Part shown: piece by piece, positions 4,465-33,472 of the stretch
Layout of the letters: each line of letters begins with the position of its first letter
How positions within the stretch are numbered: position 1 is the first letter of the stretch
IMG/VR virus record: IMGVR_UViG_3300042868_009220
Coordinates: 1-34,289 of that record
DNA length: 34,289 bases
Reading direction: 5' to 3' (one strand)
Source of the DNA: a virus
Program-made: the position numbers and the translations under genes
Notes under the pieces: generated by a model
What the model was told of the DNA's origin: nothing
Databases searched by the model: none
Seen by the model: the letters and a program-made list of their open reading frames with translations, nothing else

Positions 4465-5808
4465 TTACTTTGTCGAAGTGGTGGAAGATTTCGTCGTGGA
4501 AGTGACGGGGGCAGACTTTGCAGCCGGACCATCGGTAGCCAGCGGAGTCGCGCCAGTAGTTGTCAGCTTCGCCACGTAGCTAGGCGAATGGTTCGCCCAG
4601 GCATACCGGGCAGTTCCGACGAAAACCGTTTCGTCGTATTCGATGGCCCGCTCAGTCGATGCCCGAATCTGAAGCCCGGCCGGCTTATACCCAATGGCAC
4701 AGGCCGAACCGAAATCACCATAGAGCGCCAGAACATCGGCCGGCAGATCCTGCGATTGATAGACCGGAGCCCCATAAACCACCGGGCGAACCGCGTCACC
4801 GATACTAGCGCCGATGGCCCCAGCGGCAACGCTCATAATCTGGCCCCAGCCGGCCGGGGAAACGACCCACGCACGGCTCCGGGCGTTCGGATTCACGCAA
4901 GAAACGACCTGCGCGAGAATCTGAGCGGACAGGGTTCCGGAGGACGAAACAATATTCGACGCTGGAACCATGCCGCAGAGCCCGCCGCCGGGGATGCCGG
5001 CCGCCACGTCACCCTGTAGCCACGTCTTATCAATCTTCCGAGCGAACGCGTATGCGAACTGAGCCGCCACAAGCTGCGCGACGGATACAAACGCGTCTTC
5101 CATCAATTCATTCGAAACCTGAGCCCGCGCGCCGATTTTCTTAAGATCGAGCGCCGCCCGCGTTCCGCCGCCGAACGTAACGGGCTGGATTTCGCAATTC
5201 TCCAGATAGAATTCCGCCTCTTGAATCATCTCCGCGACGGGAAGATACATTCCGGGGCCATTCACCGCGTAGGTGGAACAAACCTGGGTGGCAACAGACG
5301 AATAGGACAGGAGATTCAGAATCCCCCGGTAAATATCGTTGTAAACCAGTTCCGAGCCGCGGCCGTCATACGTAGGCGAAAGCTCGCCCATCGCATTCGG
5401 TTCCTCAGTTGGCGTTGTGAAATCGCCCCGCAATTCGCCGCGGGCCAACGCCCGGAGAAACCGGCCAGCCTTTGCCGCGTCTTCCGCGTTGTCGAAACCG
5501 TGAATCTTTCCGAGCGTCAACGCGGCCCGCCGGGCCATCGGGGCCGGGGCCGGGGCCGGGGCCGCCGGAACAACGCCCGAAGCGGTGGCCGCACTCCGGA
5601 CCGCCTCCGCCTTGACCCGCGCGTCCGCGATTTTGTTTTCCATTGCCAGGGATGAACGCAACGAATCCAGTTCCGCCACCAGCGCATTCAGCTTTTCAGC
5701 CTGTTCGGTCGCGCCCGCCTCAACCGGCGTTGCCGATTCGACGGCCTCAATTTCGGCAAGTTTGGTATCGACTTCCTCGATGATCGCGGTCTGTTTCGAA
5801 TTCGGCAT
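4465..5808 (-). CDS. Major capsid protein, HK97 fold
   Basis: 447 residues, ATG 5808 after GGGAG. The N-terminal ~70 residues form a charged helical scaffold (delta) domain, followed by a Val/Ala/Pro linker (APAPAPAPMARR) and then the HK97 coat region: YNDIYRGILNLLSYSSVATQV, VTFGGGTRAALDLKKIGARAQVSNELMEDAF, WLQGDVAAGIPGGG, ending with a Ser/Thr/Lys tail. The prohead protease probably removes the delta domain near residues 90-115; the exact site is not visible. It lies downstream of portal and protease as expected, but separated from the protease by four inserted genes. Confidence 0.9.
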   Translation of the reverse strand: MPNSKQTAIIEEVDTKLAEIEAVESATPVEAGATEQAEKLNALVAELDSLRSSLAMENKIADARVKAEAVRSAATASGVVPAAPAPAPAPMARRAALTLGKIHGFDNAEDAAKAGRFLRALARGELRGDFTTPTEEPNAMGELSPTYDGRGSELVYNDIYRGILNLLSYSSVATQVCSTYAVNGPGMYLPVAEMIQEAEFYLENCEIQPVTFGGGTRAALDLKKIGARAQVSNELMEDAFVSVAQLVAAQFAYAFARKIDKTWLQGDVAAGIPGGGLCGMVPASNIVSSSGTLSAQILAQVVSCVNPNARSRAWVVSPAGWGQIMSVAAGAIGASIGDAVRPVVYGAPVYQSQDLPADVLALYGDFGSACAIGYKPAGLQIRASTERAIEYDETVFVGTARYAWANHSPSYVAKLTTTGATPLATDGPAAKSAPVTSTTKSSTTSTK

Positions 5809-5890: not shown

Positions 5891-6577
5891 CTATTCAACA
5901 GCGCGCCGAAATCGTTCGGAATTCCATTCGATGAACGCGGCCAGCTTTTCCGCGTCCGGATAGTTGGGGTCTACTTTCGCCGCAAGCGCCAACATTACGC
6001 GGCAATAGAATTCCATCTCTCGCGCGAAATCTTCCGTCTCCCCGCGGGCCGACAAGCCCAACTCCCGCCGCGCAAACGTGCCATGCACGTACGCTACCCA
6101 TTCTTCAACAAGATAAATCGGTTCCGCGTCCCAATCCCGGCGCTGTTCCACTAGATACAGTTGATATATCCGCCCGCGTTGACTCTCCGGAATGGCCGCG
6201 GCAACGTCGCCAATCGTCAACCGCGGATGAGCGATAGAAACCGACCGGCCGCCCAAAAGATAGATCCCGTGAGCGCCCCGGACTTTCGGAACCCGAACGG
6301 ATACCCCGTGCGTTCCTTCATGCGTCCATGTCACCAGATCGGTGGGGTCTGTTTGGTCCCGCCAATACTCTTGGTTCGGTAGCCGCGCGAGAACATCCGC
6401 CAGTACCGCGGGGCTCGACCGGACCGGCCGGCCCACAACAGACGGACCCGCCCAGAATTCAAGCGCGGCCGAACAACGGTCCGCCGGTTTCGACGGCTCG
6501 ACAACCGGAACCCGCAACGCCGGCCGGATGGATAGCGCGAACGCCAGCGCAAACAACGCAAGCGCGAACCATCGCAT
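5891..6577 (-). CDS. Exported protein with HExxH motif (putative metallopeptidase)
   Basis: 228 residues. Residues 1-20 form a signal peptide or N-terminal anchor (MRWFALALFALAFALSIRPA). Residues 86-90 read HEGTH, the HExxH zinc-peptidase signature, in the hydrophobic context LVTWTHEGTHGVSV. About 70 residues later VEEWVAYVHG (E158/E159) could supply a third, gluzincin-like zinc ligand. The rest is a mixed helical domain with no family I recognise. It lies between the exported Ala/Pro-rich gene and the capsid gene. I infer a secreted or periplasmic protease, possibly acting on the host envelope; a non-catalytic role is possible. GGGGG sits 5 bases before the ATG. Confidence 0.6.
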   Translation of the reverse strand: MRWFALALFALAFALSIRPALRVPVVEPSKPADRCSAALEFWAGPSVVGRPVRSSPAVLADVLARLPNQEYWRDQTDPTDLVTWTHEGTHGVSVRVPKVRGAHGIYLLGGRSVSIAHPRLTIGDVAAAIPESQRGRIYQLYLVEQRRDWDAEPIYLVEEWVAYVHGTFARRELGLSARGETEDFAREMEFYCRVMLALAAKVDPNYPDAEKLAAFIEWNSERFRRAVE

Positions 6578-6603
6578 ACCGGCCCCCGACTATAGCCGCG
6601 GGG

Positions 6604-7275
6604 CTACTGTTTAGCGGCCCTATACGCGTCCCTGGAAGCCTCGACAGCGTTCCGCTTGATTGCATCCCCAATAGCCCGCCGGCCGAGCCGATAGGCTCTA
6701 TGATCCAGCCGGGCCGCTTCCTGCGTTTCGTGCATTTCCTTTCGAGCGTCTCGCAACTGACCAAACAACGCCGGGGGCTCTGCGCCCGCTCCAGGGGCCG
6801 CGGCCGCCATAGGGGGGCAATTGCCATTCTGACAATTGCCGCTCTGGTAATTGCCGCCGGCATCGCCGCCGGCATCGCCAATAATGACCCGCATATCAAG
6901 CGGAACGTTGATCCGGAAACGTTCCTCAATCGGTGCCGCCGCCCGCATTTCCGGGGCAGGGGCCGGGGCCGGAACGTAATCCGGAACCGGGGCAGGGGGT
7001 GGGGCCATTTCAACCACCCGCGTTTCCACCGGAACCGCCGGGGCCGACCGAGTGGAACCGCCAGCCGAACCATTGCCGGCCGAAGTTTGAACAGACCCGC
7101 CAGCCGAACCGAAACCGGCAGACCACCGGGGGGAACCGCCGGAATAACCGTTGACCGGGGCAGGGGCCGAACGCGTTGAACCGCCCGCCGAACCATTGCC
7201 CGCGGCGGCCGCCAGACCCACCACAAAAACAGAGCCGACAACAGCGGCCGCGAACAGGCCAAACACGTTTTTCAT
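6604..7275 (-). CDS. Exported Gly/Ser/Ala/Pro-rich protein of unknown function
   Basis: 223 residues from ATG 7275 (AGGGA upstream). MKNVFGLFAAAVVGSVFVVGLAAAA is a clear signal peptide. It is followed by GNGSAGGSTRSAP-type repeats at least twice, a Pro/Ala linker (PPPAPVPDYVPAPAPAP), a short segment ERFRINVPLDMRVIIGD, Gly/Asn-rich GGNYQSGNCQNGNCPP, and a charged C-terminal helical region (RDARKEMHETQEAARLDHRAYRLGRRA). It looks like an extended cell-surface or envelope-spanning protein with a helical end. It lies in the exported block between CAP and HExxH genes. No function can be assigned. Confidence 0.65.
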   Translation of the reverse strand: MKNVFGLFAAAVVGSVFVVGLAAAAGNGSAGGSTRSAPAPVNGYSGGSPRWSAGFGSAGGSVQTSAGNGSAGGSTRSAPAVPVETRVVEMAPPPAPVPDYVPAPAPAPEMRAAAPIEERFRINVPLDMRVIIGDAGGDAGGNYQSGNCQNGNCPPMAAAAPGAGAEPPALFGQLRDARKEMHETQEAARLDHRAYRLGRRAIGDAIKRNAVEASRDAYRAAKQ

Positions 7276-7283
7276 AGCGTTCC

Positions 7284-7787
7284 CTATCGAAATGATTGCG
7301 TCCAGTAAAGCCGGCCGTCTGCCGACCGCGAACAACCTACCCCGATAGTTCCCGCCCTTGAATTCAGAATGTTTTTGCGGTGCCCAGGCGAATTCATCCA
7401 CGCCCGCATAACCGACTCCGGGGAATCTTGCCCATACGCCACATTCTCCGCGTACCCGTTTTTCGAATGCGACATTCTCCGCCGCGCGGCTTGTTGTTCG
7501 CTCCAGCTTCTCGAAACATCCATAAGAACGGGGGATGTTTCGAGCGGCGCGAGCCCCCGCCGCGAACGTTCATCATTAACCAGCGAAACCACCCGCATTT
7601 CCGCGACCGATCCCGCCGGCCGCGCGACCGTTTTCGGCCGGTCCGGAACCGTTGTGGTTTTCGCCACCGTCCACGGCGGCGGCGGGTCCGCCCGCAACGC
7701 CGGAACGCCGGCCGCCGGCGCGACAATCAACAGAGCCGCGCCGGCCGTTTGCCAAGCCCTAAGCCTCATCCCGCAAGTTGTCAGCAT
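7284..7787 (-). CDS. CAP/SCP domain exported protein
   Basis: Up to 167 residues. The start is ATG 7787, or ATG 7769 giving MRLRAWQTAG; both leave a hydrophobic signal segment AGAALLIVAPAAGVPALRA. The rest is a CAP (SCP/PR-1-like) domain: VNDERSRRGLAPLE, a His in RRRMSHSKNG, the ENVAYGQ motif, MRAWMNSPGHRKNIL and the final IGVGCS...YWTQSFR. These are the conserved CAP motifs. Bacterial CAP proteins are exported and bind lipids, metals or glycans, but their function is mostly unknown. A CAP gene inside a phage head module is unusual. It overlaps the end of the membrane protein gene. Confidence 0.85.
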   Translation of the reverse strand: MLTTCGMRLRAWQTAGAALLIVAPAAGVPALRADPPPPWTVAKTTTVPDRPKTVARPAGSVAEMRVVSLVNDERSRRGLAPLETSPVLMDVSRSWSEQQAARRRMSHSKNGYAENVAYGQDSPESVMRAWMNSPGHRKNILNSRAGTIGVGCSRSADGRLYWTQSFR

Positions 7788-8031
7788 AAACCACCGCTAG
7801 TAAGAGTTCCCGACACATTCCCTGCGCCTTGGTGTTCCCGTGTTTCTCGAAACGGTCTTTCAGTTCCAAGATTTCCTGTACCGTCTTCCGTTCAAATTCA
7901 CGCCGCGTCGATACCGGAACCCGACCAACCGTAGACGCAAGCCACGCCCCGAATAAATGCAACGCCCACGGCGTTAGAAGAATCAAAACGCCCACGCTCG
8001 CGATAATGTTTGCCGGCGTCAGGTAGCTCAT
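7759..8031 (-). CDS. Small membrane protein (one N-terminal TM)
   Basis: 90 residues. The ATG at 8031 overlaps the protease stop as ATGA. Residues about 9-32 (IIASVGVLILLTPWALHLFGAW) form a single membrane helix. The rest is a charged, probably coiled helix (TRREFERKTVQEILELKDRFEKHG) exposed on one side. It could be a holin-like or spanin-like protein, or an anchor for the neighbouring exported proteins. No family is recognised. Confidence 0.6.
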   Translation of the reverse strand: MSYLTPANIIASVGVLILLTPWALHLFGAWLASTVGRVPVSTRREFERKTVQEILELKDRFEKHGNTKAQGMCRELLLAVVYADNLRDEA

Positions 8032-8723
8032 CCGCGGCCAGCCTTTCGCATAGCTTGCCGCTTTGCCGCTTCCGCCTTAACCCGCGCCGCCACCGACCGG
8101 GCAACCACCCGCCGCCACGATTCCCCGTCGCCGGACCGGGCCGCGGCCAATTCCTGCCGAATCGTCCGCCCGCGGAATTCTTCCACCGACCGCAACGCAA
8201 CAGACGCGTCTAGATATGCGCCGGTCGTGACTAGGGAAACGTCGTACAGGCCCGAAACCGCCCGTATGGTCCGGATAGTCTGGCCGGAATCGTCATACGA
8301 ATAGGTTTCATCTTCCGGACTGACCGAGAACGCGAACGAACTTCCATAAACGTCACCGCGAGCCACCAGGGAAGCCAGATCGCGGGCTAATTGGGTATCC
8401 GGGGGCTCGATTTCGAATGCCAGCCCCCGCGCATCGCTCGAAAGGGTAAGCGTTCCGCTAGACGTTCGCCCCAATAGCTGGCCGGGATCATGGTTCCAAA
8501 GCGCCACGCAATCGGAAGCCCTCCGGGCCGCGGCCGATGGCCGGCCCGGACCGTCGAATTTTCGCGATAGGACCGCATCAAAAGCGCCCGGCAAGAGGAT
8601 TTCCCGAAACCCCCCCAGATCCTGCGATAGTGAATCGTAAACGGCCGCGTACCCGCGAAACATTCGCCGGCCGTCGCCGCGTTCCTCAACCGTCACCGGG
8701 TCGCCAAAATCTCGCCGTTCCAT
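8028..8723 (-). CDS. HK97-type prohead maturation protease
   Basis: 231 residues. It shows the S78/U35 family plan: FRGYAAVYDSLSQDLGGFREILLPGAFDAVL at the N-terminus, catalytic His in ALWNHDPGQLLGRT (H78), LAFEIEPPDTQLARDL, and catalytic Ser in GDVYGSSFAFSV (about S128/129). The protein should cleave the N-terminal scaffold domain of the capsid protein during head maturation. It follows the portal gene by 16 bases. The Arg/Ala-rich C-terminal tail is usual. Confidence 0.9.
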   Translation of the reverse strand: MERRDFGDPVTVEERGDGRRMFRGYAAVYDSLSQDLGGFREILLPGAFDAVLSRKFDGPGRPSAAARRASDCVALWNHDPGQLLGRTSSGTLTLSSDARGLAFEIEPPDTQLARDLASLVARGDVYGSSFAFSVSPEDETYSYDDSGQTIRTIRAVSGLYDVSLVTTGAYLDASVALRSVEEFRGRTIRQELAAARSGDGESWRRVVARSVAARVKAEAAKRQAMRKAGRG

Positions 8724-12877: not shown

Positions 12878-14140
12878 TTACCATGCCGCCAACGCAACCC
12901 GCCGCCACGTATTCGCCGCCACGCATACATAGAGAAACCCGGCATCGTACCGAACGCTTCCGGCCGTGCCCGGAGCCGCCGCGCTGGCCGGCGTTGCCGC
13001 CACGATCCCCGCCACCGCAGACGCTGGTATGGATCCCGCCGCGAACGAATGCGCCGCGCCGGTCGCCGTGATATTGCCGACCACCTCCAGCGCGCCGCGT
13101 ACCTTTGCCGCGCCGCCGACTTCCAGGGGAACCGTAGGGGTAGACCAACCTACCCCGAGATTCCCGGCAAAGTATGAATCCGCCTTACTGACGCTAGACA
13201 GGGCAAAGGAATTCGCGGCTTTCGGGATCGTGTCGGCAATGGATATGCCGATATTGTTCGTGCCTCCAGACGCTTGCGCCTGAATGGCAATGTTTGTAGT
13301 GGCAACGCCCAACGCCCTAGCGTCAACGCCAATGCCCGTGCCGACTGTTCCCGAGGATTCCGCATAGATCCCCGTGATGGATCCGGTTGTGGCCGAACCG
13401 CCTTTACATACCGCGACGATTCCCGCGCCCGTTTGACCAGCGCCAGCGCCGGAAACATTAAACGTGCCGCCCGTGCCCGATTGCGAACGGGTAACAGATA
13501 GCCCGTCCAGGATCGTAGTGTATCCCGTTGTCGCAACCTTAAAGTTATCAGTACTGATATTGATAGAAACCGCATTCGTTGCCAACGCGTCAAGCGTTAC
13601 CGCCGCCGATTTCGAGCCATCCGGGGAAACGGACCCGAGCGTCAACCTAGTATCCGGTGGAAGTGTTGCCGTGCCCGCAGAAAGTACCTGCGCCCGCAAC
13701 AAAGCCCGCTGATTGAGTGTGGACGGCGTGTATGTGCCGACCGAATTGAATCGAATGATGCCCAGTTCATCACCCACCGCTACCGCTGTTGGCGCAGTAA
13801 TGGTTCCACGGGAGCGCCGGATGGTGAAATTAGGCCCGTTCCCTTGATCCCCTGAGCCCTCAAATAGAAACAGGGGCCGGGCATTTTCGACCGCGACCGT
13901 GAATGAAGTTCCAGCCGGGGGCTTTATCGCCAGTGCCCCCGTCATCGTGTCGCCCGTGACGTTCACGTAACGGGTATCTAACGTCGTTTGCGAAACGTGA
14001 ATCAACCCGTCTGTGCCAATCGTCGCGACGTTCGCCGCGTCGATAGAAACCGCCGTTGGCCCAGCCGGGCCGGGAACACCTTGCGGCCCGCGCATGGATT
14101 CCCAAGCCGCGCCGCTCCAAACGTATAGCTCCGTTGCCAT
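12878..14140 (-). CDS. Tail fibre / adhesin with short collagen-like N-terminus
   Basis: 420 residues; ATG 14140 after GAAAGGAAAGGGG. It starts MATELYVWSGAAWESMRG, followed by a short collagen-like piece (GPQGVPGPAGPT), then long beta-rich repeats (LDTRYVNVTGDTMTGALAIKPP typical of phage fibres) and a Gly/Ala/Thr-rich shaft. The C-terminus GSVRYDAGFLYVCVAANTWRRVAL is a short terminal piece seen in many phage fibres. It probably binds the host surface. The opening 'YVWSGAAWESM' phrase is shared with the neighbouring fibre genes. Confidence 0.75.
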   Translation of the reverse strand: MATELYVWSGAAWESMRGPQGVPGPAGPTAVSIDAANVATIGTDGLIHVSQTTLDTRYVNVTGDTMTGALAIKPPAGTSFTVAVENARPLFLFEGSGDQGNGPNFTIRRSRGTITAPTAVAVGDELGIIRFNSVGTYTPSTLNQRALLRAQVLSAGTATLPPDTRLTLGSVSPDGSKSAAVTLDALATNAVSINISTDNFKVATTGYTTILDGLSVTRSQSGTGGTFNVSGAGAGQTGAGIVAVCKGGSATTGSITGIYAESSGTVGTGIGVDARALGVATTNIAIQAQASGGTNNIGISIADTIPKAANSFALSSVSKADSYFAGNLGVGWSTPTVPLEVGGAAKVRGALEVVGNITATGAAHSFAAGSIPASAVAGIVAATPASAAAPGTAGSVRYDAGFLYVCVAANTWRRVALAAW

Positions 14141-14179
14141 TCCCGGCCCCTTTCCTTTCGAGTGATTGAACCGCCCAGA

Positions 14180-14764
14180 CTATTTGACGATCCAGAGCGC
14201 GCCGGGGGCAATCGGAACGGGTTCCGTTAGTTGTACGTAGACTTCGTTGTTCCGGCCCGCGGGGCCGACCTCACCCGCCGGACCCGCCACGCCCGCCGGC
14301 CCCTGTTCGCCGGCAACGCCGGCCGGACCCTGTTCCCCGGCAACGCCAGCGGAACCCGCCGGACCCGCGATACCTTGCGGCCCCTGGATCGACCCGCCGG
14401 ATACATAACTATCCGTTACCGAATCATAAACCCAGAAACTATCATCCGCCTGGACAATGTAGCTATCACCCTGCGCGGCCGGTTTCGGCAGATCGGCTTC
14501 CGTTGCCACCTCGCCGCGGAAGTTAATCCCGAGCCCCGCGGAGCCCTGAATACCCTGTTGACCGGCCGGCCCCTCCGGACCCGCTGGCCCCGCCTCGCCG
14601 GCCGGACCCGCCACGCCTTGAATTCCTTGCGCGCCGGCCGGACCCGCGGGGCCAATTTCGCCAGCCGGGCCAGCGCTTCCAGCCGGGCCGGCATCGCCAG
14701 CCGGGCCGCGGATGCTCACCCAGGCCACGCCGTCATATACCAGAACGTCTTGTGTATCAGCCAT
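14180..14764 (-). CDS. Collagen-like fibre protein
   Basis: 194 residues. [20 protein letters not shown] is followed by Gly-X-Y repeats ([20 protein letters not shown] and so on), an intervening globular module ([39 protein letters not shown]), a second Gly-X-Y stretch and a short end [20 protein letters not shown]. Collagen-like triple helices are common shafts in phage fibres. The module 'GDSYIV' is a copy of one in the 645-residue fibre. Confidence 0.75.
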
Positions 14765-14766
14765 CG

Positions 14767-15048
14767 CTAGACCCTTCGCTTTCTCAAAATTGGATATTTC
14801 GCCCGCCGATACGTTACCGACGATGACAAACGCCCATATTCAACCCGCTTTACCAACGGAACCCGTTCCAGACCCGCCAATAGCCATACATCCCCCTTTG
14901 CCGGCCCCGTAGGTTCCGACAATTGGGGTCCAAATACGTCGATGGAATCTCCGGGCGGCCCAGGCGGACCCACAGCGCCGCCGGCCGTACCCGCCGCGGC
15001 AATTTCTTGCCACGTAGTACCATCCCAGAAATAAAGTGAATTCGCCAT
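14767..15048 (-). CDS. Short fibre-associated protein
   Basis: 93 residues. Opens [20 protein letters not shown], the same 'YxWdGxxW' opening as its neighbours, then a mini-collagen GPPGPPGD, the [24 protein letters not shown] version of the shared module, and a basic C-terminus ([19 protein letters not shown]). It looks like a minimal member of the same fibre family and may be a shortened paralogue. Confidence 0.6.
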
Positions 15049-15051
15049 TCG

Positions 15052-15468
15052 TCACGGCCGGGGCTGGATATAAAATTCGATCTTGCGGCGGTCGCGGCCG
15101 GGAACGTTCGATAAATCCTCTAGCGTACAATCCAGCTTCGAATATCCGTTTGCCGTGAATGTCTTCGAAAACGTCCGCGGAACGTAGCCGTTTCGCGGGA
15201 TCTGGACGCATTGAAACATGAAAACTTCTTCCGGATCGGTAGGGGCACCGATTCGCGCGGAAAACTCGACTTCATACCCCGGCTTATAAACAACGTCGCA
15301 AGCGTACAAATACGGGGGCTCCGCGGCGGCCGCTTCTTCCCATACCAATTTCCAAGCGCCGCCCGCGAGAACATACATTTTCTTTGGCGCGACCCATGCG
15401 CCGCCGACCAAAACCCCTTTCGGGGCCGCGGGTTTCCATGCTCCGGCGTTGAGAACTTGAACGGCCAT
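15052..15468 (-). CDS. Tail/fibre protein with GGAW repeats
   Basis: 138 residues from ATG 15468 within a TGATG overlap with the large fibre. Three short repeats ending AW (LNAGAWKPAA, LVGGAWVAPK, LAGGAWKLVW) are followed by a beta-rich domain (YLYACDVVYKPGYEVEFSARIG and so on). The small 'GGAW' repeats occur in phage tail-tip and fibre proteins. It probably works with the large collagen-like fibre. Confidence 0.6.
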   Translation of the reverse strand: MAVQVLNAGAWKPAAPKGVLVGGAWVAPKKMYVLAGGAWKLVWEEAAAAEPPYLYACDVVYKPGYEVEFSARIGAPTDPEEVFMFQCVQIPRNGYVPRTFSKTFTANGYSKLDCTLEDLSNVPGRDRRKIEFYIQPRP

Positions 15469-18754: not shown

Positions 18755-18934
18755 TCAGTTTTGCGAATGCCAAGCCCGGTTGCGTTCCGCGGCAAACGTA
18801 GCCGCGCGGAGCCGTTCAACGTCCGCGGCCGTTTGGGATCGGAACCACGCAACGCCCGAAACGAAACCCGCGATGAAAACGCCAACGCAAACCAGAACCC
18901 CGGCCACGATCCAGACGAACGCCAAGATTTCCAC
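18755..18934 (-). CDS. Small membrane protein
   Basis: 59 residues from GTG 18934, with GGGAGG 7 bases upstream. A long hydrophobic helix (ILAFVWIVAGVLVCVGVFIA) is followed by GVAWFRSQTAADVERLRAA, a charged tail. It lies between the initiator-like gene and rusA. No family; a membrane-associated accessory protein or an early-expressed holin-like protein are both possible. Confidence 0.55.
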   Translation of the reverse strand: MEILAFVWIVAGVLVCVGVFIAGFVSGVAWFRSQTAADVERLRAATFAAERNRAWHSQN

Positions 18935-19083
18935 GGCAAAGCCTCCCGAGTAATTCGAAAAACATACCGCCGCCGGGAAATACCATCCAGCCGGCAAGTA
19001 CCGGAACCCGTACTACGAACCGCCCATAGCCCGCTCGAAACCGTTCCCGAAGTGCCCATTTCCGAACTACGGGCCAAAACAGC

Positions 19084-26820: not shown

Positions 26821-27729
26821 ATGTCGCTAACCGATTTCCTACAGACGATCTATATCCCCCTCCGCCTCCGCGGACGGTCCCAAAACAGCGTCCGGCTACT
26901 CGCGCACGCTATACGGCAATATTCGAAATTCCTCCGCCGGGATGCCGTCTTGGAGGATTTCGACGATCTAACCGTTTCGCAATTCCTTTCCCACCGGGGC
27001 GCGACACTCTCCCCGTATTCGGTCGAGCGCGAGCGGTCCGGACTACTCGCGCTCTGGAGACTCGCCGCAGACCGGCGGCTTGTGGATCTCCGGCCATGCG
27101 TCCAGGCAGAACTACTCCCCGAGCGGATCCCGCGGGCCTTTACCGTCGCGGAACTTGAGCGCCTCTATGCCGCCGCCGAGGATACGCCCGGATGGATAGG
27201 CCCGGTTGCGGCCGGCGCGTTTTGGACCGCCGCTATCATGGCCCTATACGAATCGGGAGAGCGTATCGAGGCGATGCTAAACGCCCCGAAATCGGGCTAT
27301 ACGGCCCCGTTCCTCCGCGTTCCCGCCAGCATTCGCAAAGGGAAACGAACCCCGCGCATCTACGAATTTTCGGCCGATACTTGCCGGCTTGTCGAAATCG
27401 CCGCCAAACATGACGCGGCCACGCTGTTTCTATGGCCGATGGACCCAAGCGGCATCTACAACCATTTCCACAAAATCACCCACCGCGCCGGGTTGGGGTC
27501 CGGCCGTGACGTTATGTTTCATTGCATCCGCCGGACAACCGCCAGCCATCTAGCCGCCGCCACGGGTAGCGTTGACGCGGCAACGGCATATCTGGGGCAT
27601 TCTTCCGACCGAATCACCCGCCGTAGCTATATCGATCCGCGCATAGTGGGGGCCGCAGGGGTCAAACCGCTTGACGCACTCCCGCGGATTCGACCGCCGG
27701 CCGGGCCGAAAATCCATCGGATTGCATGA
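26821..27729 (+). CDS. int: Tyrosine recombinase / integrase
   Basis: 302 residues, the only plus-strand gene. The N-terminal SAM-like region (SLTDFLQTIYIPLRLRGRSQ, HAIRQYSKFLRRD) is followed by the catalytic domain with R148 (YESGERIEAML), Lys in IRKGKRTPRIYE, H234-x-x-R237 (MFHCIRRTTASHL), H260 (AYLGHSSDRI) and nucleophile Y270 (TRRSYIDP). The full R-K-H-R-H-Y set is present. XerC/D-like in size and plan. It integrates and excises the prophage. Its 3' end overlaps the GT8-like gene by 68 bases in convergent orientation. Confidence 0.95.
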   Translation: MSLTDFLQTIYIPLRLRGRSQNSVRLLAHAIRQYSKFLRRDAVLEDFDDLTVSQFLSHRGATLSPYSVERERSGLLALWRLAADRRLVDLRPCVQAELLPERIPRAFTVAELERLYAAAEDTPGWIGPVAAGAFWTAAIMALYESGERIEAMLNAPKSGYTAPFLRVPASIRKGKRTPRIYEFSADTCRLVEIAAKHDAATLFLWPMDPSGIYNHFHKITHRAGLGSGRDVMFHCIRRTTASHLAAATGSVDAATAYLGHSSDRITRRSYIDPRIVGAAGVKPLDALPRIRPPAGPKIHRIA

Positions 27730-28432
27730 CCCGCCACGCCGTCCGGTCGATCCGCTGCCCGCGCAGCTTCCGCCCCGTGAAATGGTAGATGAACCCATTC
27801 ATCCGGCCCGTATTGTGTTCCGGGCGAATGTCCTGGCCGGCCGCTACCGTGTTCCAGGCCGCCGGCAACCACGTTGCCGGGGCCGCCTTCGAATGCAACA
27901 GGAGCGATAGGCAGACCTGTTCCGGTAGCCGCCGAGGGTTCCAGCGGTTCCGCTGCCCGCACTCGCGGAGCCGATGGAATAGGCCCGCGTGAACTTGCGG
28001 CCCGTACAGAAAGAAACCGCCGTTCAAGTGTTTCGAATCGGGGCAGGCGGGTAGGCCCGTCCATTTCGACCATTGCCCAACGCAAAATTCCCTGTGAAGG
28101 GAAATCGTTTTCCCGTCTTCATAGCCAACGTCCCCGGCCGCGCCCGGAAACTGACAGGCGGACACTACCCCGATACTCTCCGCCGGGACCAACGCGAACG
28201 GGTCCGGCGCGTCATCGCGGATGAGCATATCGGCATCTAGCTGTAGAACGCGTTCATAGTCCGCCAGCCGGACCGGCGCGAATGCTTTCTGCCAAAAGAT
28301 ATGAACGGGAGCCAGCCGCCCGCGTAGCTCGACAAACTCCACGCCCCAACGGGCCGCGGCCGCCTCGAAACTCTCCCGGCTTTTCGGGTGGATCGACTGC
28401 CCCCCGACGTTCAACACCGCGAGCGCTTTCAT
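27662..28432 (-). CDS. Glycosyltransferase, GT8-like (GT-A)
   Basis: 256 residues; ATG 28432 overlaps the upstream stop as ATGA. MKALAVLNVGGQSIHP opens the nucleotide-binding fold, DYERVLQLDADMLIRDDAPD carries the DxD metal motif (D66, D68), and KHLNGGFFLYGPQVHAGLF is the 'LNGG.f' motif of GT8. The later HNTGRMNGFIYHFTGRKLRG fits the family end. It probably transfers a sugar from a nucleotide donor. It is the last gene of the late row and runs into the integrase from the other side. Confidence 0.8.
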   Translation of the reverse strand: MKALAVLNVGGQSIHPKSRESFEAAAARWGVEFVELRGRLAPVHIFWQKAFAPVRLADYERVLQLDADMLIRDDAPDPFALVPAESIGVVSACQFPGAAGDVGYEDGKTISLHREFCVGQWSKWTGLPACPDSKHLNGGFFLYGPQVHAGLFHRLRECGQRNRWNPRRLPEQVCLSLLLHSKAAPATWLPAAWNTVAAGQDIRPEHNTGRMNGFIYHFTGRKLRGQRIDRTAWRVMQSDGFSARPAVESAGVRQAV

Positions 28433-29733
28433 GCTGCCACCGACGCGCGGATATGCCCGGCCGCCGCCGCCAACGCTTCCGGCGCTGGTTCCAGGCCCAG
28501 GAATCCCACCAGAGCCCCGGCCACCGCCGCGGGATCCGCCAGCATTTCCGCCCATGCCACCCGAAACACCCGCTCCGCCGGGAAGCCGCGCAGAAACGCT
28601 TCCCGTTCGCCGTGTAGCCATGTTTGGACGGCCGCGGCTTCCGCATCCGAAACCGCCAGCCAGCCCCGAGCGGCCCGGCTGCGCCGCTGGAGACTGTCAA
28701 TGGATTCCGCCAGCGGCCGTTCACAAACCACGACCCGCAACGCGTCCCCGGCGGCCGCCACCAACTCCGGACCCATTGCGCATAGGTGGGGATATTTTCC
28801 GCCGGCTATTGCCCGCGTTTGCATCCGGCCCCGAATCCAGCCGGCCAATTGCCGCGCCGCCTCCCGCCTATCCGCGATTTCGCACCGGGGGAACTTTGCG
28901 GCCCGTTCACAGATCGCGGCCAGCCCGACCGCCTCACCTCCGCCGCCGTTTTTCCGTTCCCACCCGCCAAGGCGGTCGCCCATGCTTACCCCCAGCTTGT
29001 GCAGAACCATAGCCGTCGCGCTCGATCCCGAGCGGTGTAGGCCCATGACCGCGACAAACTGTTTTGAATCCGGAACCGTCGCGGCCCTCGCGCCCCACCA
29101 ACGTTCGATAACATCCTTTCCCGATATGTTTGACCGGCCCGCCGCCTGCCCGCAAAGCCAGACGGCCGGCGCGTAGAACCCGCTTTCCTCCGCTTTGTGA
29201 AGGCGGCCGAAGTGGTGGTCAATATGGCAGGAATTCTTCCACTGGTCGCACGACTCAAGCCACCGATAAAGCCGCAACAGCCCGGCCCGGCCGCGAACCG
29301 CGTAGGCATGCGTCCGGTTGATATTCGAAGCCTTGACCACCAGCGGATTTCCGGGGATTGCCAGCGGCGGCCGCAAGTGTTGCCCGCCTAAATACGCTTG
29401 CGTCCAGCCGGCCGGGAGCGCGTCGAAATACCTTTCCGCCGCTTCACTGAAACCGGGGGAAAACGTCGCGTCATCCTCGAAAATCAAAACGCGTTCCTGC
29501 CCGGCGTTCAATGCGTCTTCAATGATTCGTACATGGGACCGATAGCATCCCCACGCGCCTCCGCCCTGCCGCCACCATTCCGGGCTCTTGCATTTCGCGC
29601 CATCGACCGCGACTTCCAGGCCAATAGGCCCATACGGAAAATCTGCCGGAACCCCGGCCCGGAACGCGGCCAGCCGATCCGGCCGCCGGGCCAACGAAAC
29701 AACCGCCACCCGGTCAAAGCGTTTATTAGACAT
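28429..29733 (-). CDS. GT25-like glycosyltransferase fused to a sulfotransferase-like domain
   Basis: 434 residues from ATG 29733, with GGGG just upstream. Residues 1-210: GT25-like (LPS/collagen-type) with FDRVAVVSLARRPDRLAAFR, GCYRSHVRIIEDAL and ERVLIFEDDATFSPGF (EDD motif at about 86-88). Residues 225-434: sulfotransferase-like, with the 5'-PAPS-loop pattern FVAVMGLHRSGSSATAMVLH (about 229-241), LRVVVCERPLAESIDSLQRR and the end VFRVAWAEMLADPAA. This suggests sequential glycan transfer and sulfation. The fusion is one open frame. Confidence 0.75.
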   Translation of the reverse strand: MSNKRFDRVAVVSLARRPDRLAAFRAGVPADFPYGPIGLEVAVDGAKCKSPEWWRQGGGAWGCYRSHVRIIEDALNAGQERVLIFEDDATFSPGFSEAAERYFDALPAGWTQAYLGGQHLRPPLAIPGNPLVVKASNINRTHAYAVRGRAGLLRLYRWLESCDQWKNSCHIDHHFGRLHKAEESGFYAPAVWLCGQAAGRSNISGKDVIERWWGARAATVPDSKQFVAVMGLHRSGSSATAMVLHKLGVSMGDRLGGWERKNGGGGEAVGLAAICERAAKFPRCEIADRREAARQLAGWIRGRMQTRAIAGGKYPHLCAMGPELVAAAGDALRVVVCERPLAESIDSLQRRSRAARGWLAVSDAEAAAVQTWLHGEREAFLRGFPAERVFRVAWAEMLADPAAVAGALVGFLGLEPAPEALAAAAGHIRASVAA

Positions 29734-30130
29734 ACCCCAGCTTTCTTGCATTGCGGATCGCCCGCGCCACGACAAGCCGCGCCACCGTCGCCACAAACGG
29801 CAGTTTCCGCCGGCCGCTTTCCTCGCGCAACCATTCAACCACCGTTGCCCGGTTTTTATCAACCCAGGCAACGCCGCGCACGTCCATTTCAGCGGCCCGA
29901 GCGTTACATTTACAAGTAGGGGAAGAACGTATTCCCACCAGAGACAATAACTTTTTTAGCTCCGTTCCCGCGCCGCCCCGAGGGGTCCGCCGCCGAGGAT
30001 ACGCCGGGTGGTTTTCGTCTATCGTCCACATGGGACCGTCCCGCGAAACCACGCACGGCATGACCGCGGCCAACAGGTAGCCGCGCTCCCGGCATCGCTC
30101 AAAAAGGTGCCGCCTATGGCATGTAATCAT
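29726..30130 (-). CDS. Conserved small protein with CKC motif
   Basis: 134 residues; the ATG overlaps the upstream stop as ATGA. MITCHRRHLFERCRERGYLL, AAVMPCVVSRDGPMWTIDEN, HPAYPRRRTPRGGAGTELKK, LLSLVGIRSSPTCKCNARAA then EMDVRGVAWVDKNRATVVEW. The Cys pattern (C4, C13, CKC around residue 73) could bind metal. I recall similar proteins in phage-like regions of Planctomycetota, but the function is unknown. Confidence 0.65.
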   Translation of the reverse strand: MITCHRRHLFERCRERGYLLAAVMPCVVSRDGPMWTIDENHPAYPRRRTPRGGAGTELKKLLSLVGIRSSPTCKCNARAAEMDVRGVAWVDKNRATVVEWLREESGRRKLPFVATVARLVVARAIRNARKLGYV

Positions 30131-30891
30131 GGGAGTGGGTTAACGTCACGGGTTGCGCCGAACGAAATGCTACAGGTAACGCCGTCGCTTACGCCTGCAC
30201 CCTTCCAGACCTCCGGCCGCGTCACGAGCGCTTTGGGGCCGGGGGCCGCAACCGTGCCAAACTTCCAGCCATCGGGGTACTTAGGCAAAGGCAACAACAC
30301 TCCGTCGACATAACTGCTCCAGAATCCTTCTATACACTGCGGCCCGCCTTCGATTGTTTCGATGCTTAAGCGGGCACCGTCGCAATTCCCAAAAATCTCA
30401 GTTCCGCGATCTAGCCTAATGCCTAACACAGGCCAATCCGGCGGGAGTTTTAGCGTGCCTTTCCATACCAAAAGCTCATCATACAATTCAGGTCTTGGGA
30501 TATATTCTAGTTCGACCTCTTGATTTAACGCCTCCGCGTATCCGGCCGAAACGCCGGGAATACACCACGGCAACGGGTCTGAATCGACAAACCCGCATAG
30601 CTTAACCGTGGCCGTTCTGGGAACATTCTCGCCGCAAACCCAAGGAGGCGGCTGCGGGTTGCAAGCCTCGTGGGCTAGGTCAAGGTCTATGAACCCGCCC
30701 TGATCTAGGCAGACATCATTGGGGAGAAAGACTGTCTGGATGTTGTTTGGGAAGCTGGAGTTACAGAAGTAGCAAGGCGGATCGGGCGGCGACGACGAAC
30801 TAGACGAAGACGAACTGGAAGACGATGAACTAGAAGACGATGAACCGCAGCATTCGCAGTCGCTGCGAACCGTCCGGGTAGCGCTGTTCAT
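30127..30891 (-). CDS. Poly-Ser/Cys-rich tail-associated protein
   Basis: 254 residues from ATG 30891 (ATGA overlap with the Cys-repeat gene). MNSATRTVRSDCECCG is followed by a run of about 18 Ser, then a short PPDPPCYFCNSSFPNN segment and a beta-rich globular domain (VFLPNDVCLDQGGFIDLDLA, LKLPPDWPVLGIRLDRGTE, GPQCIEGFWSSYVDGVLLP). The 'CxCCG-Ser-run' opening matches the one in the upstream gene. It is probably an exposed tail or baseplate protein. Confidence 0.55.
   Translation of the reverse strand: MNSATRTVRSDCECCGSSSSSSSSSSSSSSSSSSPPDPPCYFCNSSFPNNIQTVFLPNDVCLDQGGFIDLDLAHEACNPQPPPWVCGENVPRTATVKLCGFVDSDPLPWCIPGVSAGYAEALNQEVELEYIPRPELYDELLVWKGTLKLPPDWPVLGIRLDRGTEIFGNCDGARLSIETIEGGPQCIEGFWSSYVDGVLLPLPKYPDGWKFGTVAAPGPKALVTRPEVWKGAGVSDGVTCSISFGATRDVNPLP
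30806..30850. repeat. 45-base poly-Ser coding repeat, copy 1
   Basis: 44 of 45 bases match 32086-32130. Codes for serine in both genes and ends with CGCAG at the Cys codons. Confidence 0.8.
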
Positions 30892-32588
30892 GTTCCCTGC
30901 CATACCCGCGCCCATATTTTCGTCTTTGTCACAACAAGCTGGCCGTCTTCACAGCTTACATCCGTAACGACTTCCAGCCATTCGCCGGGGCCGAACGAAC
31001 CCGAGCCCGGCGGCCCGGAGGATGAGCCGTCGCTACTAGGGGGAGCGCACCCGCAAACCTCGCAGCATTCGGCCGCCGTATCGTACGGGCCGCTCACGGG
31101 CGTGTTACCGTCCCAACGATCCCCCGATTCGTTCGGTTGCCGGCAAACCGCCTTTGTTTCCTCGCCGTTCGGCCAATAACAGTACCACGCGCCACCGCTC
31201 CCGCTAGAAGGGGGAACACAGCCGCAAGCCTCACAACATTCGGATTCCGTACCATACGGGCCGCTTTGCGGGTCCAGACCTTCCCAGACTCCGCCAGGGG
31301 CAGACGATTGCCGGCATATCGCCTTTGTCTGGTCCCCGTCCGGCCAATAACAGTACCAGGGCGGCGGCGGATTACATTCCGCTTCGCATTCCTCGCGGGT
31401 ATCGTGCGGCCCCGAACTAGGGAATAGCGGTTCCTGGCCCTCGCCAGGGGTCCACAAGCCTAGTTCATCATCTTTCGAGTCTGATACATGGCATTCCTTT
31501 ATCGGGCTCCCGTCTTCCGCCGTGCCGACCTCATAACAGTACCAGCGGCCCCAATAACTGGAACCGTCGCTAGACGTTGAACTAGACGAATCACCGCCGC
31601 AGGCCGCCGCGCATTCGGCAGCGGTTTCGTACGGTCCCGATTCCGGGGAAAGCGGTTCCCCGTCATCGCTCGACCCGTCGCCGGGGCCGGGTGGGGTCCA
31701 GAGCGCGGCCGGGTCTTCCGGATCGTCTGGAGTATGGCATTCGCGGATTGGGGTTCCATCGGATGCCGTATCGACAACGTAACAGTACCAGGGGCCGCCG
31801 CCGGATGAATCGGACGAACCCGAACCGGATGAACCAGAAGACGATGAACCCGATGAACCCGATGAACTTGCGCAGCCGCAAACCTTGCAGCATTCTTCCT
31901 CTGTATCGTATGGCCCGCTTACGGGCGTATTCCCGTCATGGCAGTTTCCGGATTCGTTCGGCTCCGCGCAATATGCCTTGGTTTCCTCGCCGTTCGGCCA
32001 ATAACAATACCAACCGCCCCCCGATGAACTGGAAGACGAACTAGGTTCGCTGGAGGAATCCGACGATTCAGAAGACGAACTGGAAGAAGACGAACTGGAA
32101 GACGATGAACTGGAAGACGATGAACCGCAGCCGCATTCCATAACGCGCAGGATTCGCCAAAACGGTTTTTCGCCGTCATCCCGCGGAAATTCGTACCGCG
32201 CCTCCACCACCGATTCCGCCGGCAGCGGTTCCGATATGTCTTCCTCGCGGGCCAAATTCCAGAGCCGAACGACCGTGGAAACGTCGCGCAGCGTTTGCGG
32301 TTCGTTGTCGCCGCCGGCCGGCGTGAACCCAACGCCGCAGCCCTCCGCCGATTCGGCCGAGGAAAGGAAAACTTCCTCCGCCTCGACTTCCCCGCACGAC
32401 TCCAGATCCGACAACAGCCGGAAGAACAATTCCTGCGGCGGTTCCTCCGGCCGATACTTCCAGTGACCCGCGCCGGGCCGGCCGCCGCCACGCTCGACTA
32501 GCTCGACAGCCCGCGCGATACGCTCCGCCGATTGCCGGCCGAAGACAACGCCCGTTCCCCGCGCAGCGGATTTCCGGGGGCCGCCCAT
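30888..32588 (-). CDS. Cys-rich five-repeat protein with poly-Ser linkers
   Basis: 566 residues; ATG 32588 within TAATG overlap. Residues 1-150 are a helical/charged domain (QSAERIARAVELVERGGGRP, SAESAEGCGVGFTPAGG). Then CGCG and a Ser run, and five repeats of about 45-65 residues: each opens WYCY, has one or two further Cys in the middle (TKA.C or .ECH), then SGPYDT..EC...C. Copies 1, 4 and 5 are close (WPNGEETKA type); copies 2 and 3 are a longer subtype (DGTPIREC type). The linkers are Ser/Gly-rich. It ends EWLEVVTDVSCEDGQLVVTK. Likely an extended tail-tip or surface adhesin. Confidence 0.6.
   Translation of the reverse strand: MGGPRKSAARGTGVVFGRQSAERIARAVELVERGGGRPGAGHWKYRPEEPPQELFFRLLSDLESCGEVEAEEVFLSSAESAEGCGVGFTPAGGDNEPQTLRDVSTVVRLWNLAREEDISEPLPAESVVEARYEFPRDDGEKPFWRILRVMECGCGSSSSSSSSSSSSSSSSSSESSDSSSEPSSSSSSSGGGWYCYWPNGEETKAYCAEPNESGNCHDGNTPVSGPYDTEEECCKVCGCASSSGSSGSSSSGSSGSGSSDSSGGGPWYCYVVDTASDGTPIRECHTPDDPEDPAALWTPPGPGDGSSDDGEPLSPESGPYETAAECAAACGGDSSSSTSSDGSSYWGRWYCYEVGTAEDGSPIKECHVSDSKDDELGLWTPGEGQEPLFPSSGPHDTREECEAECNPPPPWYCYWPDGDQTKAICRQSSAPGGVWEGLDPQSGPYGTESECCEACGCVPPSSGSGGAWYCYWPNGEETKAVCRQPNESGDRWDGNTPVSGPYDTAAECCEVCGCAPPSSDGSSSGPPGSGSFGPGEWLEVVTDVSCEDGQLVVTKTKIWARVWQGT
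32086..32130. repeat. 45-base poly-Ser coding repeat, copy 2
   Basis: 44 of 45 bases match 30806-30850; a direct repeat about 1.28 kb away, in the N-terminal Ser run of the Cys-repeat gene. Confidence 0.8.
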
Positions 32589-33472
32589 TAGGTAATGCCC
32601 CCGAACCACCCGAACGGCGCTTGCGCGTACGGGTTCGCGCCGTCGCCGTCGTTAATGATCCGCGGGAACCCCGGCGTTCCGTTCGGAACCGCAACGCCAC
32701 CCGATAGGCTCGCGGGTTCCTTAATCGGCTTTTTGTCCTGGCCGAGGATGGCCGCCGTATATTCCCCGCTGCCCGTAGGATTGCCGGCCCCGTCAACGAG
32801 TTGTTGATAGCCAATATCCAGCGGTTTCAGAACCCAGGTATCCGAACGGTAGGCGAAATCGAACGTCACTTCCCAATAGACAAAAACTCCGTTCGAAGTG
32901 CCCTCCGTTTTCTTGTTGAACCGGCCGCCCTGGCACTTCCACGTACGCGGGGGGCAACCAAGCCACGTATCAGAGTTGATTTTGTTCGTATACCCTTGCA
33001 GGGCCGATACGCCGGAATAGTCCCCAAAACACCGCGTCAAACTCACTTGGAAATCGGCAATATCCATAGTGAGATCCGGCAGCGCAATTCCGGCCGAATT
33101 CGTGATCGGTTGCCGGTTTATATCCTGCCAACAGGGGCCGGATGAAACCGAACTACCCCCGGTCCACACGTCCGGGGGCAACTTGAAAGGATCCTCATCC
33201 CCCTCTTTACTAGGCGTGTAGTACCGAACCGTAAGAAGATAGGATAACAGCGTGTTGCCGCGCGGCTTGCAATCAAATTCCATCGCGAAAACGTTTCCAT
33301 CGTCCGGATGACTCGCGCCAAACTGGATCCCGGCCGCCTGCGCAATTACCGCCATCGACTCCCGCGGATTATCAACGCGAACGATGAATGAACGCGTATA
33401 CGTATATGTCTCGCGGAATTTACCCGAGACTCCGCGATCATCCATACTCTCGACAACGGCTACAACGCCCAT
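32588..33472 (-). CDS. Tail-tip / distal tail protein candidate
   Basis: 294 residues, ATG 33472, 8 bases after the tape measure stop. Beta-rich with ETYTYTRSFIVRVDNPRESM, GNTLLSYLLTVRYYTPSKEG, GCPPRTWKCQGGRFNKKTEG and a NGVFVYWEVTFDFAYRSDTW segment; the Gly-rich end reads PNGTPGFPRIINDGDGANPY. The place directly after the tape measure is that of the distal tail protein/baseplate hub in siphoviruses. No family motif is certain. Confidence 0.5.
   Translation of the reverse strand: MGVVAVVESMDDRGVSGKFRETYTYTRSFIVRVDNPRESMAVIAQAAGIQFGASHPDDGNVFAMEFDCKPRGNTLLSYLLTVRYYTPSKEGDEDPFKLPPDVWTGGSSVSSGPCWQDINRQPITNSAGIALPDLTMDIADFQVSLTRCFGDYSGVSALQGYTNKINSDTWLGCPPRTWKCQGGRFNKKTEGTSNGVFVYWEVTFDFAYRSDTWVLKPLDIGYQQLVDGAGNPTGSGEYTAAILGQDKKPIKEPASLSGGVAVPNGTPGFPRIINDGDGANPYAQAPFGWFGGIT

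Follow-up and report, generated by a model that had tools for sequence, protein, structure and literature searches.

Why would a phage place four genes for membrane and exported proteins between its prohead protease gene and its major capsid gene? The question is raised by virus record IMGVR_UViG_3300042868_009220, which was analysed over its whole length of 34,289 b (the window), and in which the first-pass annotation had proposed this block as a candidate for an unusual lysis or host-envelope system.

Genome and locus organization

The window carries a 127-b terminal direct repeat and its tape-measure ORF is split across the record ends; the genome is therefore complete or nearly so, or circular. 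Portal and TerL genes (Pfam) lie upstream of the protease gene, and from there the minus strand reads, 5' to 3', protease, TM protein, CAP protein, Gly/Ser/Pro-rich protein (GSP), HExxH protein (HEGTH) and capsid. The slot is bordered upstream by the prohead protease gene (8028-8723, minus strand; PF04586, E=1e-40) and downstream by the major capsid gene (4465-5808, minus strand; PF05065, E=6e-21). Between them, spaced by overlaps or short gaps, are minus-strand ORFs for a TM protein of 90 aa (7759-8031, with a 4-b overlap with the protease gene), a CAP-domain exported protein of 161 aa (7284-7769, its ATG overlapping the TM stop; an alternative longer open start at 7787 would give a product of 167 aa), an exported GSP of 223 aa (6604-7275), and an exported HEGTH of 228 aa (5891-6577), putatively a zinc peptidase whose family has no name as yet. 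All four are thus ORFs at, or very near, the positions first assigned to them. The CAP protein is the sole Pfam-recognised protein among the four products, and PHROGs gave marginal matches at most for TM, GSP and HEGTH. Hydrophobicity analysis also agreed with the export and membrane assignments made earlier, with an N-terminal hydrophobic stretch in each of CAP, GSP and HEGTH, and one TM segment in the TM protein.

Elsewhere on the minus strand, the protein at 28429-29871 matches glycosyltransferase family 25 in its N-terminal part and a sulfotransferase in its second part, and is followed by a glycosyltransferase-like ORF at 27662-28621; two poly-Ser proteins with repeated Cys-rich units (WYCYWPNGEETKAYC...; PPCYFC) are predicted at 30127-30915 and 30888-32609.

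Predicted properties of the four products

The CAP protein scores 65.6 bits against PF00188 (gathering cut-off 21.1; E=9.2e-18), in line with the domain first proposed for it, and matches the PDB SCP-domain protein 4ifa (E=4e-11). The cavity residues H107, E114 and H136 are invariant among 13 homologues, and the corresponding His, Glu, His pattern is present in 32 of 33 distinct CAP ORFs; by profile score and conserved cavity residues alike, the protein is a member of the PF00188 superfamily. All homologues are strongly cationic (net charge +9 to +14), and an envelope-acting effector is proposed as the role of the protein. To our knowledge, wall hydrolysis is not an established activity of CAP domains, and no papers on CAP-domain endolysins were found in the literature searched. 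In Bacillus phage Stills, ordinary lysis genes accompany a CAP protein whose role is called unknown (PMC4541274), which cautions against naming CAP the endolysin. The window protein shares PF00188, secretion and the bacterial H...EN...HRxN pattern with YkwD-type CAP/SCP proteins, among them those of Bacillus phages Slash, Staley and Stills, but its gene stands in linkage with genes for TM and HExxH proteins, whereas the Slash and Stills proteins carry LysM and Stills additionally has its ordinary lysis genes. A further CAP-like match in L099 (88-540) was dropped for want of Pfam confirmation; a separate, clear CAP gene is present in the L099 genome.

For HEGTH, no Pfam match and no convincing PDB or BFVD match in sequence or fold was obtained (Foldseek, and VIA-align for PDB); the best hit of the fold search was a designed protein (Z 5.2). 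The HExxH motif and a (D/E)E about 67 aa downstream are kept in 55/55 distinct full-length homologues. An AF2 model built from 19 sequences (mean pLDDT 87, core above 95) places HExxH on helix 81-93 and the conserved E159 on helix 155-172, an arrangement that is shared with the gluzincins (HExxH...E), from which HEGTH differs in being mostly helical and in matching no known peptidase in sequence or fold. As no fold was matched, the assignment of HEGTH as a zinc metallopeptidase is drawn from the motif and its helix placement; its fold may be a new one, or so reduced that the searches miss it. On the peptidase-like fold, named earlier as a point to be checked, there is a confident model with HExxH and Glu on separate helices, but no solved structure that matched it. 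A profile search of genome contigs gave no homologue in cellular sequence, and tblastn against phages and plasmids gave zero matches. Two related observations are a HEGTH homologue with a C-terminal thioredoxin-like fusion (L108, 5908-7005; Pfam scores just under cut-off), and a 419-aa protein with a HEGGGH motif (L007, 58-1317) encoded upstream of the cassette in podovirus-type phages.

The TM protein has a single TM segment near its N-terminus, followed by a positive flank and a predicted cytoplasmic part of about 50 aa. Its homologues comprise 85-99 aa; their N-termini are uncharged or acidic, the flank after the TM segment is mostly positive, and residues V13, G14, P21, L57, G65, A69 and L76 are invariant in an alignment of 12 rows; by the positive-inside rule over these 12 homologues, the topology appears to be N-out/C-in. 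No Pfam or PHROG family was assigned, and there was no match to DUF2730 (releasin) in Pfam at E<=1. Phage Mu lyses its host with the SAR endolysin gp22, the releasin gp25 and a two-component spanin, and gp25 is a 99-aa, single-TM, N-out/C-in protein with a cytoplasmic domain (PMC9239132). Similarities to Mu are the apparent topology of the TM protein, the N-terminal hydrophobic segments on the enzymes (signals or anchors, possibly SAR-like) and the lack of a recognised holin; the cassette differs from Mu in its gene order and families, in a TM protein without DUF2730 match, and in having CAP and HExxH proteins as its enzymes and no lysozyme-type endolysin. A releasin-like or holin-like regulator is proposed by this analogy. 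The TM protein had been cast as holin or anchor; a classical holin is doubtful, given one apparently N-out/C-in segment and a predicted cytoplasmic part of about 50 aa, which make it look more like the Mu releasin. A rival holin candidate (18755-18997, minus strand; 80 aa, one strong TM segment) is encoded beside RusA and replication genes, and is the only other small, strongly hydrophobic protein of the window genome.

GSP, for which no Pfam match was found, has close homologues in L003, L005 and L024, and a basic, helical C-terminus (RDARKEMHETQ...AYRLGRRA). At the corresponding place, L007, L036, L033 and L042 encode a smaller exported protein whose C-terminus is basic in a similar way (only 18-25% aligned identity to GSP). 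By position and C-terminus, GSP is predicted to correspond to the small exported proteins that podovirus-type phages encode next to CAP, and a function as outer-layer disruptor is proposed.

Conservation, linkage and exchange of the cassette

Relatives of HEGTH were found in viral contigs only (22, then 35, then 76 loci with deepening profile), and TM, CAP and HExxH genes recur together in some 35 distinct viral contigs, whose head genes are of two unrelated types. In siphoviruses with HK97-type portal, the order TM-CAP-GSP-HEGTH is found between protease and capsid (L003-L005, L024, L025 and L030; also L033, L072, L079 and others). The second background is a group of roughly 60-kb phages whose portal matches are P22-like and whose terminase matches are T4-type; here the cassette comes after the capsid and decoration genes, in the permuted order HEGTH-TM-CAP followed by a small exported protein (L007-L021 and others). 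Two contigs of 49-63 kb (L034/L035, G010/G011) retain TM and CAP, with HEGTH tens of kb off among DNA-metabolism genes; in G011, TM-CAP follows the capsid gene and precedes a small exported (GSP-like) gene. The jumbo contigs G021 (533 kb) and G022 (340 kb) encode a divergent HEGTH plus a CAP gene (E 2e-31 and 9e-27), whose products begin with a lipobox-like sequence as judged by eye.

At HEGTH loci that score E<1e-85 and have 2.5 kb or more of contig to either side, CAP is present within 3 kb in 29/32 and TM in 28/32, always on the same strand, counts that include near-identical contigs and are upper estimates of independent events; among more distant or lower-scoring loci, only 2/13 have CAP and TM within 3 kb. 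Pairwise distances among HEGTH, CAP and TM correlate (r=0.60, 0.74 and 0.85; 0/2000 permutations) over 35 distinct loci, close kin included. CAP or TM is missing nearby in L029, L086 and L078 (short contigs); TM is absent at L026 and L029, and at L029 CAP is also absent from the slot. With identities of 32-70% among contigs and the HExxH/(D/E)E motif kept in every full-length homologue compared, the four-gene block is, by these alignments, not a product of chance.

The siphovirus-type contig L141 encodes a recombinant HEGTH (13623-15069) with an N-terminal part of siphovirus type and a catalytic part of podovirus type; the catalytic part and the following HNH gene match the podovirus-type locus L036. 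To judge from this hybrid, HEGTH alleles are exchanged between phages of different virion types, and the function of the cassette would thus be exchangeable between them. Conservation of the block in relatives had been named as a point to be checked, and it is kept there as well as in phages with unrelated heads, so that the finding is firmer than could be known from the window at first reading. As far as gene content and linkage tell, the block is a co-inherited, mobile set of exported and membrane proteins, common to unrelated phages without recognisable endolysin.

The protease-capsid slot in other phages

With loci anchored on the portal gene, the capsid gene was found directly after the protease gene in the outgroup loci L168, L169, L172, L173, L175, L177 and L178, as had been assumed to be the normal arrangement. 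A sister set (L158, L160, L162 and L165) carries an insert of 2.7-3.3 kb in the same slot, with genes unrelated to the cassette: an approximately 166-aa 'TWxEFGELLxALLR' protein without any family, and TM proteins. In L160, L162 and L165 the slot also encodes an exported protein of 358-379 aa with invariant C106, H273 and N296-S-W-G (GxCxxWG..H..NSWG), which has no Pfam match and weak PDB matches to cathepsin L (E~0.1). Because the AF2 model was poor (pLDDT 42, from three sequences only), its candidate assignment as papain-like is taken from the motif and the cathepsin-L matches. CAP and TM are both absent in the sister genomes G015-G017. In L100/L101, a gene for an exported C39-type peptidase adjoins HEGTH upstream, and the L100 protein weakly resembles an endolysin PHROG.

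Search for standard lysis genes

The absence of an endolysin elsewhere in the genome, as first reported, was confirmed for Pfam families: no endolysin or holin was found among the window ORFs besides the block. An ORF-by-ORF Pfam survey of the window, of G006 and G011, and of the sister genome G015 gave no lysozyme, amidase, transglycosylase or known wall endopeptidase, hence no endolysin in G015 either, and CAP is the sole wall-linked match in the window, G006 and G011; an endolysin that has diverged far, or a domain concealed within a tail protein, could escape Pfam. Amidase_2, Phage_lysozyme and M15_4 gave no matches in 17 cassette-bearing records, many of them partial, and the controls were detected; over all 25 records searched there was one match, to Phage_lysozyme (E=7e-47) in the outgroup genome G029. 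Most relatives are incomplete contigs, in which absence of an endolysin is weak evidence. Like the canonical holin-endolysin-spanin cassettes of Caudoviricetes, the block comprises a few co-oriented membrane/exported genes near late genes; unlike these, it has no enzyme from a known endolysin family and, in siphoviruses, lies inside the head operon, in the protease-capsid interval.

Host

The host is probably a member of the Planctomycetota, a prediction drawn from distant HEGTH family members only. Distant HEGTH genes adjoin DUF1501 genes (L102, L111) or a DUF1559 gene (L109); DUF1559 genes are described as planctomycetes-group-specific in Rhodopirellula (PMC2754498), and DUF1501 clusters have been discussed as PVC-linked (PMC4452313). 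A portal alignment search of genome contigs gave distant relatives only, in Pseudomonadota and Actinomycetota, and therefore no host or prophage. Early accounts gave planctomycetes walls of protein, and peptidoglycan was demonstrated in them afterwards (PMC4432640); the genes for peptidoglycan synthesis are mostly non-essential in Planctopirus limnophila (PMC10632474), and the need of planctomycetes for peptidoglycan is a long-standing dispute (PMC4432640, PMC10632474). Lysis by an exported peptidase would suit hosts with low peptidoglycan dependence. The unusual host wall imagined in the first-pass annotation fits this indirect evidence, i.e. the DUF1559 neighbours and dispensable peptidoglycan genes, with the reservation that the host is deduced from distant members. 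No description of lysis by planctomycete phages was found in the literature searched.

Proposed function and alternative explanations

The explanation that we favour, at somewhat better than even confidence, is that the four genes are a late lysis or envelope-exit cassette of non-canonical exported enzymes, which replaces the holin-endolysin-spanin set in phages whose hosts, probably Planctomycetota, have an envelope with an unusual reliance on peptidoglycan. It is drawn from the co-inheritance of HEGTH, CAP and TM, the occurrence of the same set with both HK97 and P22 head types, the lack of a canonical endolysin by Pfam, the slot that is empty in the outgroup and filled with other exported/membrane genes in the sisters, and the Planctomycetota hints with dispensable peptidoglycan synthesis. 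In the course of events that we infer, the cassette would share its transcription with the head genes at a late stage of infection; HEGTH and CAP would leave via Sec and stay tethered on the outside of the inner membrane through their N-terminal signal/anchor segments, and the N-out/C-in TM protein would time or enable their release or activity in the fashion of a releasin or holin. HEGTH, acting as a zinc peptidase, would then cut protein or peptide bonds in the wall layer, the cationic CAP protein would act on, or bind, wall or membrane, and the small exported protein with its basic helical tail would aid breakage of the outer layer. An unusual lysis or host-envelope system is thus retained as the best reading, with the block conserved and no endolysin found by Pfam; it is unproven, no fold was matched for HEGTH, and the holin role is doubtful.

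The exported proteins might instead remodel the host envelope or exclude superinfection, by altering or shaving surface proteins in infection or lysogeny and so blocking rivals or changing host behaviour. All four products are exported or membrane-bound, the window phage encodes an integrase (PF00589) and so may be temperate, and PHROGs puts the CAP family in the moron/host takeover category; however, the position of the cassette inside the head operon of the siphoviruses, or beside the capsid gene in podovirus-type phages, suggests late expression, the set is retained over unrelated phages and is not patchy, and this explanation, which we regard as unlikely, would leave genomes without any recognisable lysis gene. 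Slightly more doubtful is that a part of the block (TM and CAP, perhaps HEGTH) is auxiliary to lysis, with a divergent protein elsewhere in the genome as the true endolysin: many window ORFs have no family, some loci lack TM (L026, L029) or CAP in the slot (L029), and CAP is not a proven hydrolase, but Pfam gave no other candidate in the window, G006, G011 or G015.

A virion or head-assembly role, e.g. as capsid-associated entry proteins, would account for a linked set always beside capsid genes, and is very improbable: the products have N-terminal export segments, one set serves HK97- and P22-type phages in differing order, HEGTH alleles recombine between these two types, and the block is absent from outgroup phages with like head genes. 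It was set aside for the export segments and the exchange across morphotypes.

Returning to the lysis cassette, a wider version of it can be formulated, in which lysis by Planctomycetota phages involves no peptidoglycan-degrading endolysin at all, a protein-dependent envelope being dismantled by a new-fold exported zinc peptidase together with CAP, basic exported and releasin-like proteins, and in which the sister slot provides an exported cysteine peptidase; we put this forward tentatively, as more probably wrong than right.

Significance

The presence of the cassette in viruses that probably infect planctomycetes suggests an undescribed exit route from hosts with little dependence on peptidoglycan. 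A conserved, endolysin-free cassette of unrelated phages would be a clue to the components on which the cohesion of the planctomycete envelope depends, would open the way to a new peptidase family, and would serve annotators as a lysis marker for phages that now seem to have no lysis genes.
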